A stretch of 54,639 nt of DNA from Candidatus Chloroploca asiatica (GTDB taxonomy: Bacteria; Chloroflexota; Chloroflexia; Chloroflexales; Chloroflexaceae), in assembly GCF_002532075.1 (NCBI RefSeq), contig NZ_LYXE01000096.1:1-54639 (forward strand), given 5' to 3'. The notes under the pieces are model-generated. The model was not told the DNA's origin. It was given only the letters and a program-made list of their open reading frames with translations, and did not search any database. Position 1 is the first letter of the stretch. Each line of letters opens with the position of its first letter. This document shows, piece after piece, positions 1-54,639 of this stretch. A program made the translations under genes and the position numbers.

Positions 1-243
1 AGAGGTTGGCTTCAACATAACGCACTCCTTGCGTGGAGTCCATCGTACCACGGCAGGCCACATTTTTCAGCAGTCTCTCTTGGGGGTGGGTTTTTTCATA
101 TGACGTGCGGGTCATGACCATTTCTGCGCCGCTGATGGGCACACACACCGAGCGTGGACTCGTTCGTCTGGGGTGGAGCGTCCTCCTGGTGCGGGCATTG
201 AACTACCCCGCTGCACCAGCAATGTCACCCCGAGCGCCCTCGC

Positions 244-314
244 TGTCACCCCGAGCGGAGCGAGGGGTCTTCCATGCGCCGCCGTGAAGATTCCTCACTT
301 CGTTCGGAATGACA
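244..314. repeat. REP-like imperfect hairpin, copy 1
   Basis: The left arm TGTCACCCCGAGCGGAGCGA pairs imperfectly with the right arm, whose reverse complement begins TGTCATTCCGAACGAAGTGA. Both arms end in a TCTT-type motif around a short variable loop. Elements of this general form are dispersed in intergenic DNA of many GC-rich bacteria. No transposase is encoded. Confidence 0.7.
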
Positions 315-455
315 TGGCTGGCGTTGGCACCCCGCTGCGCCCACCCTGGCCCCCCGCTGCGCTCGCCGTGTCACCCCGCTGCGCCAGCCATGTCACCCCG
401 CTGCACTCGCCGTGTCACCCCGCTGCACCAGCAATGTCACCCCGAGCGCCCTCGC

Positions 456-526
456 TGTCACCCCGAGCGGAGCGAGGGGTCTTCCATGCGCCGCCGTGAA
501 GATTCCTCACTTCGTTCGGAATGACA
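456..526. repeat. REP-like imperfect hairpin, copy 2
   Basis: Same hairpin as at 244-314, displaced by exactly 212 bases as part of the tandem duplication. Confidence 0.7.
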
Positions 527-624
527 TGGCTGGCGTTGGCACCCCGCTGCGCCCACCCTGGCCCCCCGCTGCGCTCGCCGTGTCACCCCGCTGCGCCAGC
601 CATGTCACCCCGCTGCACTCGCCG

Positions 625-695
625 TGTCACCCCGAGCGGAGCGAGGGGTCTTCGATGCGCCGCAGCGAAGCTTCCTCACTCCGTTCGGAATGACA
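625..695. repeat. REP-like imperfect hairpin, copy 3 (diverged)
   Basis: Third copy of the hairpin. It differs in the loop (CGATGCGCCGCAGCGAAGC instead of the loop of copies 1 and 2) and reads CTCCG where the others have CTTCG. It is therefore older than, or independent of, the 212-bp duplication. Confidence 0.65.
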
Positions 696-886
696 TGGCT
701 GGCGTTGGCACCCCTTGGTGCGGGTCCTGAACCACCAGGCCATCCCTATGCCGCAACGCGTGTCCCCCGAACCCTGGCCAACAACCCCGCCATACCATCC
801 CGAACGAAACGAACGTCATGTCGCTCCCTCGGCCCGTGAAGAAAAAAACCTACCCCCAAAAGGTCTCTCACCCCCCCTGCTTTCAA

Positions 887-9129: not shown

Positions 9130-9529
9130 GGTGAACCTCCTGGAGACGGCTCTGCCTCCTGAACCTATATACACCATTGTAGCTTACCGTGGGCTATAAG
9201 GCGAGCTTTTTTCATTAGGGCGATTGGATCTGCTGTTCCTGCGTGTCGCCAGGCTCACGGATGGCTCTGCTGCGCCGTCGCGCTGATGGTTATTAAAAAT
9301 GACCATACCATCGCTATGCCCTTGCCATGACAGGATTTGCCTGACACGACACCGATGGTTTGCCCGCTTCCTGTCGAGGCCGCCTGGTGCTAGACTCAGG
9401 AGAGAATCCACCAAGGTTTTTGTACTGGCGATGAACGATTGAGCGCACCCGGGACGTGGGGGATGTCGTCTTTCCCTGCGGGGTGACGGTCGCAGACGAC
9501 GGTGACACCATACGAAGGAGTTCAACTCA
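9130..9529. other. Intergenic region with half of a dispersed inverted repeat
   Basis: No gene is seen. On the minus strand, TACAAT (9176-9181) could be the -10 of the kinase operon. TAGGGCGATTGGATC at 9216-9230 matches, with one mismatch, the 15-bp terminal repeat of the MITE-like element at 32568-32813, but no partner arm is visible here. On the plus strand TGCTAGACT (9387-9395) is a possible extended -10 for the small protein gene at 9530. Confidence 0.5.
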
Positions 9530-31575: not shown

Positions 31576-32511
31576 TTACCCTAGCAGATCCTGCAACGCC
31601 GGACGCAATTCTGGATACGCAAACTGATACCCGAGTTTTTGTGCCCGGTTCGGCACGACGCGCTGGCCTTTGACTACCAAATCCGCCATTTCACCAAGCG
31701 TGAGCCGCAGGCTGAATTCGGGCACCGCTAGCCACGAGGGCGACCCGATCACCTTGCCGAGTATCTCAGAGAAGTCGCGGTTGGTCTCGGGGTTCGGGGC
31801 CGTGCCGTTGAGTGGGCCGCTGATCTGCTCATTTTCGAGTGCAAAGAGAAAGAGCCCGATCTCGTCATCGGGGTGAATCCACGAATAGTATTGTGAACCG
31901 GGCATAATTGGGCCGCCAGCGCGCACCCGAAACGGGATCAGGATTTGCCCAAGGGCCCCGGCGTCAGGATCAAGCACAATGCCCGTACGAATAAAGGCCA
32001 CTCGCACCCCATACTCACTCGCCCGTTGCGCCTCACGCTCCCAGGCGATGCTCACCTTGGCCACAAAGTCGTTGCCTGCCGCCGAGTCTTCATCAAAGGT
32101 AGCCGTGGTGCTGTACCCGTAAAAGCCTGCCGCCGAGGCATTGACCAGGACGGTCGGGCGGGTTTGCGCAGCGGCAATCGCCTTCACCAATCCGCGGGTT
32201 CCGATCACCCGACTACTCAGAATCTCTTCTTTGTACGCCGGGGTCCATCTCACACCGATCACCCCCTGCGAAATCGGTGCCCCGGCTAAATTGATAATGG
32301 CATGCGCCCCATCAATCGCCGCCGCCCAGGGGCCATCCTCCGCCGGCGACCACGCGACATACTCAGCCGCCCCCGGCAAGACGCGCCGCGCCGCATCAGG
32401 ATTGCGCGAAAAGATAACCAGTGCATAGCCGCGCTCGCGTAGCGCCGCAAAAAGCTTCCGTCCGACCAACCCGGTTGCCCCAGTGAGAATGATGCGTTTT
32501 GTTGTGTTCAT
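31576..32511 (-). CDS. TIGR01777 family NAD(P)-dependent epimerase-like protein
   Basis: A 311-residue extended short-chain dehydrogenase-type protein. The N-terminal Rossmann motif is IILTGATGLVGRKL, followed by AHAIINLAGAPI and SSRVIGTRGLVKAI. VNASAAGFYGYS takes the place of the catalytic Tyr region, and a C-terminal DUF1731-like tail is present. E. coli YfcH and plant homologues with a chloroplast division or cold-stress role belong to the same family; the substrate is unknown. No ribosome site precedes ATG 32511. Instead TTGACG and TACCCT lie so close that transcription should start within a few bases of the ATG, so the mRNA may be leaderless. Confidence 0.88.
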   Translation of the reverse strand: MNTTKRIILTGATGLVGRKLFAALRERGYALVIFSRNPDAARRVLPGAAEYVAWSPAEDGPWAAAIDGAHAIINLAGAPISQGVIGVRWTPAYKEEILSSRVIGTRGLVKAIAAAQTRPTVLVNASAAGFYGYSTTATFDEDSAAGNDFVAKVSIAWEREAQRASEYGVRVAFIRTGIVLDPDAGALGQILIPFRVRAGGPIMPGSQYYSWIHPDDEIGLFLFALENEQISGPLNGTAPNPETNRDFSEILGKVIGSPSWLAVPEFSLRLTLGEMADLVVKGQRVVPNRAQKLGYQFAYPELRPALQDLLG

Positions 32512-32548: not shown

Positions 32549-32567
32549 GTGCTCTGCGCCTCTGCAT

Positions 32568-32813
32568 TAGGGCGATTGCATCATACGAAATCGGATACAA
32601 CGGGGCACCCGCAAGGGGTGCCCGTACCGGGCCCGGGGGGCACCCGCAAGGGGTGCCCGTACCGGGGTGGGGCACCCGCAAGGGGGGGCCCGTACCGGGC
32701 CGGGGGGCACCCGCAAGGGGAGCCCGTACCGGGCCGGGGGGGCGGGCACGGTGTAGGGGCACCCCTTGCGGGTGCCCTGGCGGGGTGCATACACGGAAGA
32801 TGCAATCGCCCTA
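32568..32813. mobile_element. MITE-like element with 15-bp terminal inverted repeats
   Basis: TAGGGCGATTGCATC (32568-32582) is matched exactly in inverse orientation by GATGCAATCGCCCTA (32799-32813). The outermost TA at each end could be the target duplication typical of IS630/mariner-type transposition. The 246-base element has no gene; its interior consists of reiterated palindromes of GGGCACCCGCAAGGGGTGCCC and GTACCGGGCC. A second left end with the same next 18 bases except two lies at 54426, and a one-mismatch end lies at 9216. This points to a non-autonomous element mobilised by a transposase encoded elsewhere. Confidence 0.65.
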
Positions 32814-32985
32814 GCCTCCCCGCCTCCCTGCCGCTGCGTTAAAACGAAACGCCACGGTGAAGAGATATGGTATCCTATGACCCGACTACTTAACCGCACC
32901 GCTTAGTCCGACAACGAAACGTGCCGCTTCGTCCTATTTCCTATTTCCTGAATCCTTCTCGTAAGACAAATGAGGTTTCCCCCAG

Positions 32986-34914
32986 ATGATGCGTTTGTTT
33001 CCACTGATCTTCCTTACGGTGTTCATCCTGATCACCATAGGCTTGTTGCCCCCCGCCACCCCAACCGTCCAGGCTGCACCACTCGCAGCACGCCAACCGG
33101 GCCTGCCGCCTTCACTCTTTGGCCTCAATATGTACATCACCGGGCGCGAACGCTCTGAAGCCGAAGCCGCCCAACTCGTCCGCCTCGCCGGGCCAATTGG
33201 CGCACGCTGGACGCGTGAAGAGATCTGCTGGGCCTGCTGGGGCCGTGAGGTGCGGAACGATTTCTATGACCGCCGGATCGCGATGCTCGCCGAGGCCGGG
33301 ATCGGCATTATTGGCATGTTGCTCACGACCCCTGAACAGTACCGCGATCCCGCCTGCGTCGCCCACGCTCGCCGCGTCAATGAACCCGAATACTGGTGTG
33401 CGCCAACTGATATGGACGCCTTCGCCCGCTGGGTTGGTCAGGTCGTCGAACGCTACGATGGCGATGGCTACCAGGATGCCCCTGGCTCACCACGGATCGC
33501 CGCCTGGGAGATCTGGAATGAGCCCGATATGGACGGGACGTGGCTGCCCAAGGCGGATCCCGTCGCCTACGCCGAAATGCTCCGCAAAGCCTCAGCCGCT
33601 ATCCGAGCCGCCGATCCGACGGCCATCGTGCTTGTCGGTGGCGTCTATGTCTTCGATGCCGTCGGCGAAAAGGGGTTCCTTGATCGCGTCGTTGATCTTG
33701 CCGGCTGGGATAGCTTCGATGTGCTCTCGATCCATCCCTGGCTCATTGACCACGCCCCCGACAATCCCGCCCTCATCAATCCTCGTGAGCGTTTTGATGT
33801 CACGATCCCCGGGCGCCTCGAACTGGCCAAGCGCTGGGTGGCCGCTCGCGGTGGCGGCAAGCCAATTTGGATTACCGAAGTAGGCTGGAGCACCTGCGGC
33901 AGTGCGTGCGCGCCCCAGTTTGCCAAGAATGGCGAAGAACAGGCCAACTATATGGTACGCACCTTCGTCCTCGCTGCGGCTGCGGGCATCGAACACGTCA
34001 GCTATTTCCAACTCAGTGATAAATTCAAGGGCGGCCAGCAACCCTGGGGGCCTGCTGCCATTCTCAATGATGACCTGAGCCCTAAACCAGCCTATCAAGC
34101 CTATGGCACGATGGTCTCGCAACTCCAGTTTGCCCGTTACCAGGGCACTGGGTCGCTCCACCGGCAGGGCATACTCGCGAACCATCGCTTCACGCTGCCC
34201 GACGGCGGCGTCGTTGACGTACTCTGGACAATCAGCGGTCAGCGTGCGATCGACTTCCCGCTAGCCGCTGGCCTGAGCGCCACCCTGGTTGAACGCGATG
34301 GACGGCTGCGTGAACTTGGCGGCGGCACGGCCCGGTTAACTGTCAGCGAACGCCCGCTCTACATCCGTCAGGTGCCCGGCGGCAGTCGCAGCTTTGCCGA
34401 AACTGGGCAGAGCATCCGCGGCAGCTTCCTGCGCACCTGGGAACGCGGCGGTGGCCTGGCGATCTACGGCTTGCCCATCACCCCCGAACGCCTCGAACGT
34501 GGCAGCGACGGGGTCGAACGGATCGTGCAGTGGTTCGAACGCACCCGCTTCGAGAGCCATCCCCAGTATCGTTCGCCCAATGACGTGCTGATCGGCCTCG
34601 TCGGGGTTGAATACCTCGCCCGTCAGGGCCTTGATTGGCGCAGTCTCCCGACCGTTGACGGGGCACCCGCAGGATGTCGCTACTTCCCTGAAACCCGCCA
34701 CAGCCTTTGTCCACCCTTCCGCGCCTATTGGGAACGCAACGGTGGCCTGGCGACCTTTGGCTTCCCCATCAGCGAACCGACCAACGAAACTGTTGAAAAC
34801 GGACGCACCCTGAGCGTCCAATATTTCGAACGTGCCCGCTTCGAAGACCACCCCGATCTAGCGCCAGCCAACCGCGTCCAACTCAGTCGTCTTGGTATAC
34901 GCCTCGCCCCGTAA
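32986..34914 (+). CDS. Secreted glycoside-hydrolase-like protein with C-terminal repeats
   Basis: A 642-residue exported protein. The N-terminal signal is MMRLFPLIFLTVFILITIG with a cleavage site near VQAAPLA. Residues about 45-390 form a TIM-barrel glycosidase-like domain of the GH5/GH39 (clan A) style, with the acid/base motif WEIWNEPD and the candidate nucleophile in IWITEVGWSTCG. The C-terminal 200 residues contain two copies of a module seen in many Chloroflexota surface proteins (ETGQSIRGSFLRTWERGGGL ... WFERTRFESHP; ETRHSLCPPFRAYWERNGGL ... YFERARFEDHP). The substrate is probably an extracellular polysaccharide, but it cannot be named. TGGTATCCT at 32868-32876 is a possible promoter. 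The GAGG upstream of ATG 32986 is a weak ribosome site. Confidence 0.78.
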   Translation: MMRLFPLIFLTVFILITIGLLPPATPTVQAAPLAARQPGLPPSLFGLNMYITGRERSEAEAAQLVRLAGPIGARWTREEICWACWGREVRNDFYDRRIAMLAEAGIGIIGMLLTTPEQYRDPACVAHARRVNEPEYWCAPTDMDAFARWVGQVVERYDGDGYQDAPGSPRIAAWEIWNEPDMDGTWLPKADPVAYAEMLRKASAAIRAADPTAIVLVGGVYVFDAVGEKGFLDRVVDLAGWDSFDVLSIHPWLIDHAPDNPALINPRERFDVTIPGRLELAKRWVAARGGGKPIWITEVGWSTCGSACAPQFAKNGEEQANYMVRTFVLAAAAGIEHVSYFQLSDKFKGGQQPWGPAAILNDDLSPKPAYQAYGTMVSQLQFARYQGTGSLHRQGILANHRFTLPDGGVVDVLWTISGQRAIDFPLAAGLSATLVERDGRLRELGGGTARLTVSERPLYIRQVPGGSRSFAETGQSIRGSFLRTWERGGGLAIYGLPITPERLERGSDGVERIVQWFERTRFESHPQYRSPNDVLIGLVGVEYLARQGLDWRSLPTVDGAPAGCRYFPETRHSLCPPFRAYWERNGGLATFGFPISEPTNETVENGRTLSVQYFERARFEDHPDLAPANRVQLSRLGIRLAP

Positions 34915-41100: not shown

Positions 41101-42590
41101 GCGCGTTTCTTGCCCATATGAGTCACGAGCTTCGTACGCCCCTGAATGCAGTGCTTGGCATGACGGCTTTGCTGCGTGATAGTGAACTGACCGCTGAGCA
41201 GCGTCTCTTGACTGATACGATCAATACAGGTGGACAGGCTCTGCTCGCGGTGCTCAGTGATATCCTCGATCTTTCACGGATCGAATCGGGGCGCCTCGAA
41301 CTTGCATTGGCCCCGTTTGACCTCTATGCCTCGCTTGCCGCGACGGTCGATCTCGTGAACCACACAGCCCATGCAAAAGGCTTGGCTGTTGGCTATGCCT
41401 CTACCCCCGATCTCCCCCGCGTGGTCGTCGGCGACGAAGCTCGCCTTCGCCAGGTTCTGCTGAATTTGCTCGGCAATGCGGTGAAATTCACCAATCACGG
41501 CGAAGTGACGCTCACGGCTGATGCCTCCCCCGGCGCCGACGAGACGGTGCTGATAACCTTTGAGGTGCGCGATACGGGCATTGGCATGACTGTTGCACAG
41601 TCGGAACATATCTTTGAGCCGTTTGTGCAGGTCGATAACAATTCCTCGCGTCGGTATGGGGGGACTGGCCTTGGTCTGGCGATTACGCGGCAGTTGCTTG
41701 ATTTGATGCAAGGTACGGTTGAGGTCGCGAGTAGCCCCGGAATTGGAACTACCTTTACGGTGCGTGTGCCCTTTGCGCTCGCTACCGAAGATCGCTTACC
41801 CCAACCAGTCGCGCTCCCCGTGCAGTTTGCGCATCCCTTGCAGATCCTGATTGCCGAAGATAACCCAATTAATCAGCAGGTGATTGATCGGGTTGTGCGG
41901 CGGATGGGCCATCAGGTGACCCTGGTCAACAATGGTCAACGCGCACTCGAAGCCGTCAAGCAGCATCCGTATGATGTTATCCTGATGGATATGCAGATGC
42001 CTGAACTCGATGGCGAAACAGCGACCCGTATGATCCGTGAGCTTGGCACCACGATCAACCAGCCTCGCATTATTGCGCTTACCGCTCATGCCCTTGATGG
42101 CGACCGGCAGCGCGCTTTGCAGGCAGGGATGGATGACTACCTCTGCAAGCCAGTGCAAGTGAGCGATCTCAAGCGCCTGCTTGGTGCTGTGCCCCTCGCT
42201 CATCAGCCTGAACCTGAAGCCTTACCCCTCCGCCATCAGTCGCACGAGGCAATCATTGACTGGAAGATCCTTGATCAATTGCAGGCGGCCCTTGGCCCGC
42301 ATGGCCCCGAAGCCATTGCAACCATGATTGCTCTCTTTGAAGAGACGATCCCTTCCCAAATTATCGCCCTGGAAACAGCCGCCCTCGAGCACAATCTCGC
42401 TCGGCTTCACGCGGAAGTCCATCGTTTACGTGGTGGCAGTCGCCAGATGGGCGCGCAGGCAATGAGTTCCCTTTGCCAGCAAATTGAGGATGTGCCCTCT
42501 GATAAAGATGTGTCGCCCTTGATTGCCCAACTACGTACTTGTTATGCACAGACGCGCTCAGTGCTGCGCCAGCGCTATCCTGATGGGTAG
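38148..42590 (+). CDS. Membrane hybrid histidine kinase with PAS/GAF array, REC and HPt
   Basis: A 1480-residue sensor. About six membrane helices cover residues 25-190 (e.g. IFAFVGIPVLLFDAFLHL, LGSFLLGCLLALATMGFYGI), followed by a coiled coil. A doubled module comes next: PAS (WTDELYRIHEVEPG), GAF, PAS (WSEQVYAIHDLPVG), GAF, then a third PAS. The kinase core has FLAHMSHELRTPLNAVLGM, LNLLGNAVKFTN, VRDTGIGM and GGTGLGLAITRQLL. A receiver follows (ILIAEDNPINQQV, VILMDMQMPELDG, DDYLCKPVQV), and then a C-terminal HPt domain with phosphotransfer His in EVHRLRGGSRQMGAQ. All stages of a phosphorelay are thus in one protein; the likely output is the GGDEF regulator upstream. The GAF domains could bind chromophores, but no bilin-ligating cysteine motif was identified. 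Confidence 0.92.
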   Translation: MVPASHSSPSQPALDDPLVAWRQRTINLLLKIFAFVGIPVLLFDAFLHLQFGRWPMAVWSFCFAVLVVVLALLPRLDDRVRSFLLLGSFLLGCLLALATMGFYGINAALVAINVVLAVLLLGSRPALVIGILGSIGAALVFTGFAFGLLPYPYVALSNVTDPWVLTNNLLLIIALAAGLGLMVNSLLVTLQTSLRTTRATLTELEEVNATLDAKVDQRTAEVRRASLLLEAIHSITRVGGIAFNSEDGTVAWTDELYRIHEVEPGTVIDQPLLRQLYPPDTWAMISDASGRLCRAGEPYDLELPALTLTGRPIWLRVIGMADSTSGPPHYTGAVQDITAYKQAEQRIATQLQYAEALARCSQILLTSVENQSALQQTLNEALGIVREAVDADRISLARYPHYSLGETTLKRAFQNLAGNDRPGLPPPRPFPAEAIRDLPPALNVWQQGGGMYNGPVIGQFPEHPIYQRACESSGLKSLCIQAVQLQERWWGHIIIFDYQHLRSWDAGAVQLLRTAAEMMVTFVEAAETAQALREREVLLREVGQMARVGGWALDCATWRVQWSEQVYAIHDLPVGEPPPLDEAINFYAPEARPVLQAAINEGLEHGTSWDLELPFITAQGRRIWVRAQGQPVIREGVVVQLSGTVQEITVRKEAELALARELRYAEALEQCSRMLLVASTDVADWQPVVQQAIALLRQAIGCTRLSINFFPVADGTFRIAERKLVDQDQDAPPYQASPVEVADIPVALLEQLQPGKSITGLIDDLVPPDSSLYAYFHANQRPNLCIAGVFINGIWRGYLVASDRDATKRWDDPTIRLLHTGIEMITAFLQQWEMSSALRIREAQLRAVGDNLPNGFIYQYCHDQSMQPSYRFISGGVQQVLGVSAEEVFVDPSVLHKLISPDERERVLAAQLHSFQELSLFAEVVHFILPDGTERSLYLSSRPRREADGSVVWDGLSLDITERQRAAAELAQARDAAEAATRAKSAFLAHMSHELRTPLNAVLGMTALLRDSELTAEQRLLTDTINTGGQALLAVLSDILDLSRIESGRLELALAPFDLYASLAATVDLVNHTAHAKGLAVGYASTPDLPRVVVGDEARLRQVLLNLLGNAVKFTNHGEVTLTADASPGADETVLITFEVRDTGIGMTVAQSEHIFEPFVQVDNNSSRRYGGTGLGLAITRQLLDLMQGTVEVASSPGIGTTFTVRVPFALATEDRLPQPVALPVQFAHPLQILIAEDNPINQQVIDRVVRRMGHQVTLVNNGQRALEAVKQHPYDVILMDMQMPELDGETATRMIRELGTTINQPRIIALTAHALDGDRQRALQAGMDDYLCKPVQVSDLKRLLGAVPLAHQPEPEALPLRHQSHEAIIDWKILDQLQAALGPHGPEAIATMIALFEETIPSQIIALETAALEHNLARLHAEVHRLRGGSRQMGAQAMSSLCQQIEDVPSDKDVSPLIAQLRTCYAQTRSVLRQRYPDG

Positions 42591-42604
42591 GTTGCATCTC
42601 GCAT

Positions 42605-43124
42605 GCGCATGCGGGGCCCCGTGGGGGCACCCCTCGCGGGTGCCCTGCCCTGCCGTCGCGGGTGCCCTGCCGTCGCGGGTGCCCTGCCCATACACCGTAC
42701 CCGGCCCGCGTTGTTGGCGGGTGCCGCCGGGCCCGTAGGGGCACCCCTCGCGGGTGCCCTGCCCTGCCCTTGCGGGTGCCCTGCCCTTGCGGGTGCCCTG
42801 CCCTTGCGGGTGCCCTGCCCATACACCGTACCCGGCCCGCGTTGTTGGCGGGTGCCACCGGGCCCGTAGGGGCACCCCTCGCGGGTGCCCTGCCCTTGCG
42901 GGTGCCCTGCCCTTGCGGGTGCCCTGCCGTCGCGGGTGCCCTGCCCCATACACCGTACCCGGCCCGCGTTGTTGGCGGGTGCCACCGGGCCCGTAGGGGC
43001 ACCCCTTGCGGGTGCCCTGCCCTGCCGTCGCGGGTGCCCTGCCCTTGCGGGTGCCCTGCCCTTGCGGGTGCCCTGCCCTTGCGGGTGCCCTGCCCTGGCA
43101 CCCGCAAGGGGTGCCCCTACTCTT
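42605..43124. repeat. GC-rich tandem repeat array with two periodicities
   Basis: The array is built from a 17-base unit GGGTGCCCTGCCCTTGC (with GTCGC variants) nested in a larger unit of about 127-131 bases. The larger unit starts with TACACCGTACCCGGCCCGCG at 42691, 42822 and 42949. It ends with CACCCGCAAGGGGTGCCC, the palindrome that also fills the MITE-like element at 32.6 kb and recurs at 54.53 kb. Long frames run through it on both strands because the unit has no stop codons; none is a gene. Confidence 0.85.
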
Positions 43125-54290: not shown

Positions 54291-54639
54291 CTGGTTCCCG
54301 GGAGAGTGGCAGTTGAAAGCCTTGCAGACAGTTTGCCGGCGACCATGCCTTGCATTATACGATACTTTTCGGCCAACATGCCTCTGATCTTACGACGTTC
54401 AGAACCATGCAATCCCCCTACAGCCTAGGGCGATTGCATCATACGAAACCGGATGCAAACATACGCTCTATTTGGCAGCATGTGCATGCAACCAGCGTCG
54501 CAAACGGCGGCCCCGGCAACAACGGGGCACCCGCAAGGGGTGCCCGTACACCGGCCCCCGGCCCCCGGCCCCTGGCCCCCGGCCCCTGGCCCCCGGCCCC
54601 TGGCCCCCGGCCCCTGGCCCCCGGCCCCTGGCCCCTGGC
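54291..54639. repeat. Terminal repeat region: element end plus 14-base tandem array
   Basis: TATAAT on the minus strand (54359-54354) may be the -10 of the zinc-ribbon gene. TAGGGCGATTGCATC at 54426 repeats the end of the MITE-like element at 32568, and the next bases match too. GGGGCACCCGCAAGGGGTGC follows at 54531. From about 54552 to the window end a 14-base unit, CCTGGCCCCCGGCC, is repeated about five times. The element probably continues beyond the window, so its other end is not seen. Confidence 0.75.

Follow-up and report, generated by a model that had tools for sequence, protein, structure and literature searches.

Probable ISAs1-driven MITEs with a changeable hairpin core in Candidatus Chloroploca

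The DNA analysed here, referred to as the window, is a stretch of 54,639 nucleotides of contig NZ_LYXE01000096.1 of Candidatus Chloroploca asiatica. Two divergent frames, one of 311 aa on the minus strand (5' side at 32511; presumably epimerase-like) and one of 642 aa (start at 32986), flank a complete MITE of 246 bp (32568-32813), which reads from left to right on the plus strand, with one of the two frames starting 56 bp away. The element is bounded by the exact 15-mer TAGGGCGATTGCATC, located at 32568-32582 on the plus strand and at 32799-32813 on the minus strand, as stated in the initial annotation. Both terminal inverted repeats have the form YAGGGCGATTGCATC, with Y being T in this copy, and are kept across 113 aligned elements. 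The two arms pair across 20 bp at 90%. A search of the window for the 15-mer, with up to three mismatches allowed, yielded seven matches, a number reached by none of 100 shuffles. Next to the left end, the element alignment reveals a subterminal module of the short-arm type, ATACGAAAYCGGATACAAC (32583-32601, plus strand), followed by a tandem array of about four units of about 35 bp (32602-32741, plus strand), in which a hairpin, GGGCACCCGCAAGGGGTGCCC, is joined to a linker beginning with GTACCGGG. A spacer (32726-32756, plus strand) extends from the last direct palindrome to the single inverted palindrome, GGGCACCCCTTGCGGGTGCCC (32757-32777, minus strand), beyond which lies the right subterminal module, reading TTCCGTGTATGCACCCCGCCA inward from the right end (32778-32798, minus strand). 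Of the five hairpin units in the interior, four are direct and begin with GGGCACCCGCAAG, two of these being imperfect, and the fifth is inverted. Single-strand folding with DNA parameters gave -97.1 kcal/mol compared with -65.3 kcal/mol in shuffles (z -8.2). No frame of at least 120 aa overlaps the 246 bp, and a transposase gene is therefore absent inside the element. A scan of the element region detected a single weak terminator-like site and nothing resembling a promoter.

Further places in the window are related to this element. The third exact copy of the 15-mer (54426-54440) forms the left end of a second element on the plus strand, of the long-left-arm type, which is truncated by the end of the window (54426-54639). 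An end with two mismatches faces it on the minus strand at a distance of about 6 bp (54406-54420) and may be the relic of an adjoining copy. An expanded array of the element's palindromes, with a 131-bp unit present in 3.3 copies and no recognisable end pair, occupies positions 42586-43120 and is probably a decayed copy. Three ends had been claimed for the window, of which those at 32568/32799 and 54426 are real. The third, a one-mismatch copy of the 15-mer at 9216, was rejected as a demonstrated element end because this lone near-match has no partner and its surroundings are uninterrupted in C. mongolica (94% over 661 bp), where the 15-mer is identical. Since the similarity of Khr17 to this region stops near the near-match, it could conceivably be a fossil end. 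Elsewhere in the window (205-714), a 212-bp unit is present in two identical copies, within 22-bp and 44-bp repeats.

The C. asiatica draft genome (5,839,665 bases, 199 contigs) contains 166 copies of the 13-mer GGGCGATTGCATC, 85 and 81 by strand, and no copy of the reversed-pattern control; the whole window element, used as a DNA query, gave 133 matches. Analysis of 100 retrieved C. asiatica stretches around end or element matches, together with the window, revealed 59 inverted end pairs, so that the 15-mer does not merely occur singly, and 58 unpaired ends, many of which are situated at contig ends or next to a decayed partner. The C. asiatica elements (n=58, a 769-bp IS remnant excluded) measure 122-454 bp, with a median of 207 bp. 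Many draft contigs, including C103, C109, C133, C139 and C153, terminate inside element copies, which identifies the family as a main cause of assembly breaks. The 14-mer AGGGCGATTGCATC is present in 158, 136 and 93 copies in the three genomes of Candidatus Chloroploca, a genus of green photosynthetic bacteria, and in 0 or 1 copy per genome in the 38 genomes elsewhere in the taxonomic family (reversed control 0 in 41 of 41). Similarly, the exact palindrome is found in 279, 209 and 101 copies in the three Chloroploca genomes and in none of the 38 others. The co-occurrence of palindromes and ends in all three genomes bears out the earlier proposal that the palindromes form the interior of the element and are carried along with it. 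In a collection of named species genomes from which C. asiatica is possibly absent, 62 stretches contained the 28-bp left end; they derive from C. mongolica M50-1 or Chloroploca sp. Khr17.

Behind the ends lie two distinct fixed modules, YAGGGCGATTGCATC-ATACGAAAYCGGATACAA on the left and YAGGGCGATTGCATC-TTCCGTGTATGCACCCC on the right; their difference distinguishes the left side of the element from the right. In the core between them, direct and inverted copies of a 21-bp palindrome, GGGCACCC-GCAAG-GGGTGCCC, surround a GC-rich spacer. Among the 113 aligned elements, 60 from C. asiatica and 53 from the sister species, the left arm is short in 49, as in the window element, medium in 29, long in 33 and of another length in 2. 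In two C. asiatica elements, L016 (299-666; G000:C15) and L116 (574-957; G000:C101), the palindrome is interrupted by an insert bounded by CAAAGGGTTTCACC.../...GGTGAAACCCTTTG, apparently another small mobile element nested within the first.

Insertion of the elements is accompanied by a 10-bp direct repeat outside the terminal YA. In the 59 pairs, 15 of these repeats match at 10/10 bases, 13 at 9/10, 3 at 8 and 28 at fewer. A match of at least 9/10, found in 28 of the 59 elements, did not occur in 3,422 left-right flank mispairings, the best of which was 8/10 (reached by 0.18%). Perfect flank repeats of 5 to 8 bp are absent from the 59 pairs, those of 9 bp occur three times and one of 11 bp once. 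In loci from the two sister species, a match of 9/10 or better is shown by 37 of 60 pairs; the mispairing control covers the 59 C. asiatica pairs. For the window element, the expected sites of the left and right target copies, GCCTCTGCAT (32558-32567) and GCCTCCCCGC (32814-32823), both on the plus strand, have 6/10 bases in common. About 4% of the mispaired controls reach 6, such that this match is by itself a weak sign of duplication. Both sister species, C. mongolica and Khr17, lack the element at the site that it occupies in the window. In Khr17 this site consists of a short GCGCCTCT tandem repeat, which makes decay of the duplication plausible; this setting and the 6/10 match render the exact duplicated letters unreadable at the window element.

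Of 12 flank-joined sites prepared, ten, the tenth in part, were searched for empty counterparts, with L128 lying outside the inspected set. At the sites of L103 and L013, C. mongolica has no element and exactly one clean copy of the 10-bp target; at the site of L127 it reads through with small differences. In Khr17 the element is missing at L013 and L017, but the target sequence there has diverged. C. mongolica carries an element at L017, L025 and L134 and, judged by one flank, probably at L024; the L009 site falls on contig ends. The comparison of filled and empty sites, proposed in the initial annotation, thus reveals insertions that are polymorphic between species, and the TA duplication expected there was not seen. 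Inverted ends, repetition throughout the genome, sites empty in relatives and the lack of genes agree with the original description of the element as non-autonomous and MITE-like. The right flanks of L009 (query 448-506) and L024 (query ~1345-1495) contain two other dispersed repeats, with many matches in both sisters.

Evidence on the transposase comes from insertion sequences that share the ends of the MITE. L027, on C. asiatica contig C108, is a 769-bp internally deleted ISAs1 copy bounded by exact 14-bp MITE ends; it carries two transposase pieces (PF13808 6e-30, PF01609 1.4e-5, NF033564 4.4e-24 and 3.5e-34). L043, from Khr17, is a 1,233-bp ISAs1 copy with exact 14-bp ends and the whole transposase region (NF033564 9.7e-45 and 2.9e-52), which is disrupted by a TAG inside it and by an altered C-terminus. 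A transposase flanked by the same ends, as had been sought, therefore exists in ISAs1 copies, but the copies with exact ends are broken. Other genomes of the taxonomic family contain more ISAs1 copies, with the near-identical ends YAGGGCNATYGCATCTW. Of all ISAs1 copies examined that have ends of this kind, ten in number, six carry a 10-bp duplication (at least 9/10 bases). One of these duplicated copies, L049, has an open 409-aa frame (NF033564 1.2e-118). The two IS copies closest to the MITE, L043 and L027, have no 10-bp duplication (1/10 bases each). MITE and IS resemble each other over no more than 20 bp at a stretch, located at the ends among the top matches. In the taxonomic order, 30 of 82 genomes contain some match to the query transposase, including L288, which is 70% identical, has a 415-aa frame and possesses similar ends. 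No unbroken close relative of the transposase was found in the three Chloroploca genomes, all of which are drafts, in which an intact copy may be hidden.

Members of the ISAs1 family listed in ISfinder duplicate 8-10 bp of their target. The ends shared with L027 and L043, together with the 10-bp duplication found both in six of ten IS copies and in the MITEs, place the elements with this family. Based on these sequence comparisons, the family of the window element, which has spread to dozens of sites in each of the three Chloroploca genomes, is very probably a MITE mobilised in trans by a DDE transposase of the ISAs1 family. Arguing against an ISAs1 helper are the missing duplications of L043 and L027, the failure to find an unbroken close relative of the transposase in the three drafts, the 28 of 59 elements with a target match below 8/10, and the window element with 6/10. 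According to this scheme, a transposase of an ISAs1 subgroup would have recognised the MITE ends and moved the element; later, the helper would have been lost or broken in the Chloroploca genomes, which would explain why the family now looks like an orphan.

The ends and the core of the elements differ in their constancy. Fifteen same-site pairs of C. asiatica and sister elements were defined by their flanks, 11 by both and 4 by one; 13 pairs are with C. mongolica and 2 with Khr17, and L157/L087 was excluded as not alignable as orthologous. Flank identity is mostly 93-98% (84-100% for single flanks). The core architecture differs in 14 of the 15 pairs and is alike only in L267/L223, a count taken from draft assemblies in which short repeats may be misassembled and of which that of L230 contains Ns. 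L130 and L074 carry the 29-bp spacer between inverted palindromes in exactly opposite orientations. The pair L024/L252 differs by the flip of one palindrome, and in L134/L202 one arm has been copied, by which the palindrome has become longer and perfect. In other pairs the number of units has changed. The long-arm element L126 (560-779) has, apparently at the same site, a short-arm counterpart in Khr17 (L189, 3427), with a right flank 84% identical; these very different cores possibly reflect independent insertion or replacement. Among elements with one spacer, the two orientations are represented by 33 and 8 elements in C. asiatica and by 30 and 3 in the sisters, with 4 undecided in each. All the core differences observed in the drafts are best accounted for by replication slippage and template switching within the hairpins, by which the palindromes around the spacer would be altered. 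According to PMC8604942, template switching between inverted repeats in yeast genes has as products arm homogenisation and spacer inversion. The changes in L134/L202 and L130/L074 are of the same two kinds, although there the system is one of yeast genes and here it is the core of a bacterial MITE, deduced from assemblies.

Other explanations of the family have to be weighed against an ISAs1 helper. The initial annotation assigned the element to IS630/Tc1-mariner, with the outer TA as the duplicated dinucleotide. TA does border the window element on both sides and is the commonest outermost dinucleotide, at 67 of 118 ends; however, 45 ends start with CA, and the consensus YA represents the outermost bases of the element itself. 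The duplications of 10 bp lie outside YA, empty sites hold single 10-bp targets, and the full-length relatives with these ends encode ISAs1 transposases. The IS630/TA reading was rejected on account of the 10-bp duplications and retains virtually no credibility. The palindromes could instead be the mobile units, REP/BIME/REPIN-like repeats spread by a RAYT (Y1 HUH) with the 15-bp ends being incidental. Their short GC-rich sequence, alternating orientation, mostly intergenic-looking positions and more than 100 copies per genome are in keeping with such an origin, as are arrays without recognisable ends, to which 11 of the 97 C. asiatica palindrome copies listed (of 279) belong. Among the same 97 copies, however, 73 have an exact end no more than 500 bp away and another 13 adjoin an end with one or two mismatches, which indicates that the palindromes travel with the element, and the unit delimited by the 10-bp duplication extends from end to end rather than over a palindrome pair. 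A REP-like origin is therefore extremely improbable.

An origin as a MITE of the ISAs1 kind would also be compatible with a driver other than a lost close relative, namely a distant intact ISAs1 transposase that acts in the genus today. Two elements of identical sequence at different C. mongolica sites suggest recent movement, and a 456-aa open frame of C. mongolica is a candidate for the enzyme. This frame is only 34% identical to the query transposase, a low similarity, and no matching end pair was found around it in the retrieved locus with up to two mismatches, which makes a distant driver rather unlikely. Domestication of the element, with the core under selection as a regulatory or RNA structure such as a terminator or mRNA stabiliser, would account for the strong folding of the window copy and for its position between divergent frames, close to one start. 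Arguing against this possibility are the absence of the element from the window site in both sisters, the failure of the core architecture to be kept at shared sites, and the scarcity of regulatory signals, limited to the one weak terminator-like site. We consider domestication very unlikely.

With mobilisation by an ISAs1-family transposase as the preferred reading, the choice of insertion sites can be considered. A stem of at least 10 bp occurs within 70 bp of 11 of the 31 sites with a clear duplication and in 63 of 620 pieces drawn at random from these loci; this preference for hairpins is only suggestive, as the random control is unmatched for intergenic position. The insertion points of L025, L103, L127, L134, L168 and others coincide with the base of a long perfect terminator-like hairpin or lie close to it. 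In 9 of 175 ends a facing end (up to two mismatches) lies within the next 35 bp, which amounts to six distinct junctions; the controls gave 0.02 per shuffled set, 0 with the reversed pattern and 1 in the same-direction orientation. Ends standing face to face, 6-12 bp apart, were seen in the window (54406-54440) and in L018 (200-235), L119 (619-629), L265 (466-477), L094 (520-532) and L130 (734-745). They may reflect either repeated use of one site or insertion next to older copies. A wider model, which in our judgement is evenly balanced between true and false, regards the element as a mobile hairpin cassette, the core of which would be rewritten by template switching faster than the ends and flanks mutate, and the insertion of which may also be biased towards the bases of terminator-like hairpins and the immediate surroundings of older copies.

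The Chloroploca elements are short, multicopy and without a transposase gene, and they have inverted ends, a target duplication and empty sites, as do bacterial MITEs. With ISAs1 insertion sequences (NF033564, PF13808 and PF01609) they have in common the terminal YAGGGCNATYGCATC and the 10-bp duplication seen in relatives of the same order; unlike these, they contain no transposase gene, and no similarity was found past the last 15-20 bp. Bacterial MITEs with other helpers are MITEPye1, with one of the IS1182 family (PMC11578231), and the TIMEs, with one of the Tn3 family (PMC4133298). The features shared with these are a short, gene-less sequence, the inverted ends of a full element, target duplication and strong folding, whereas the Chloroploca family differs in its ISAs1 helper, in its 93-158 ends per genome instead of a few, and in a core formed by a variable palindrome array. 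REP/BIME/REPIN palindromes are likewise short, numerous and of alternating orientation, but those of Chloroploca sit inside an element with DDE-type ends and a duplication. In the open-access literature searched, to the exclusion of subscription journals and ISfinder, no description of this end or of an ISAs1-driven MITE was encountered. We regard the Chloroploca elements as a new MITE family, ordinary as a class and with an unusually changeable core.

These findings replace IS630 by ISAs1 as the helper family and trace a substantial part of the assembly breaks, and of the GC-rich palindromes, in Chloroploca genomes to a single mobile family. Sites occupied in two or three of the sister species provide many replicate loci at which palindrome turnover can be measured. 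If the core is indeed rewritten as proposed, bacterial template switching would have a natural recorder in this family, with dozens of comparable loci.
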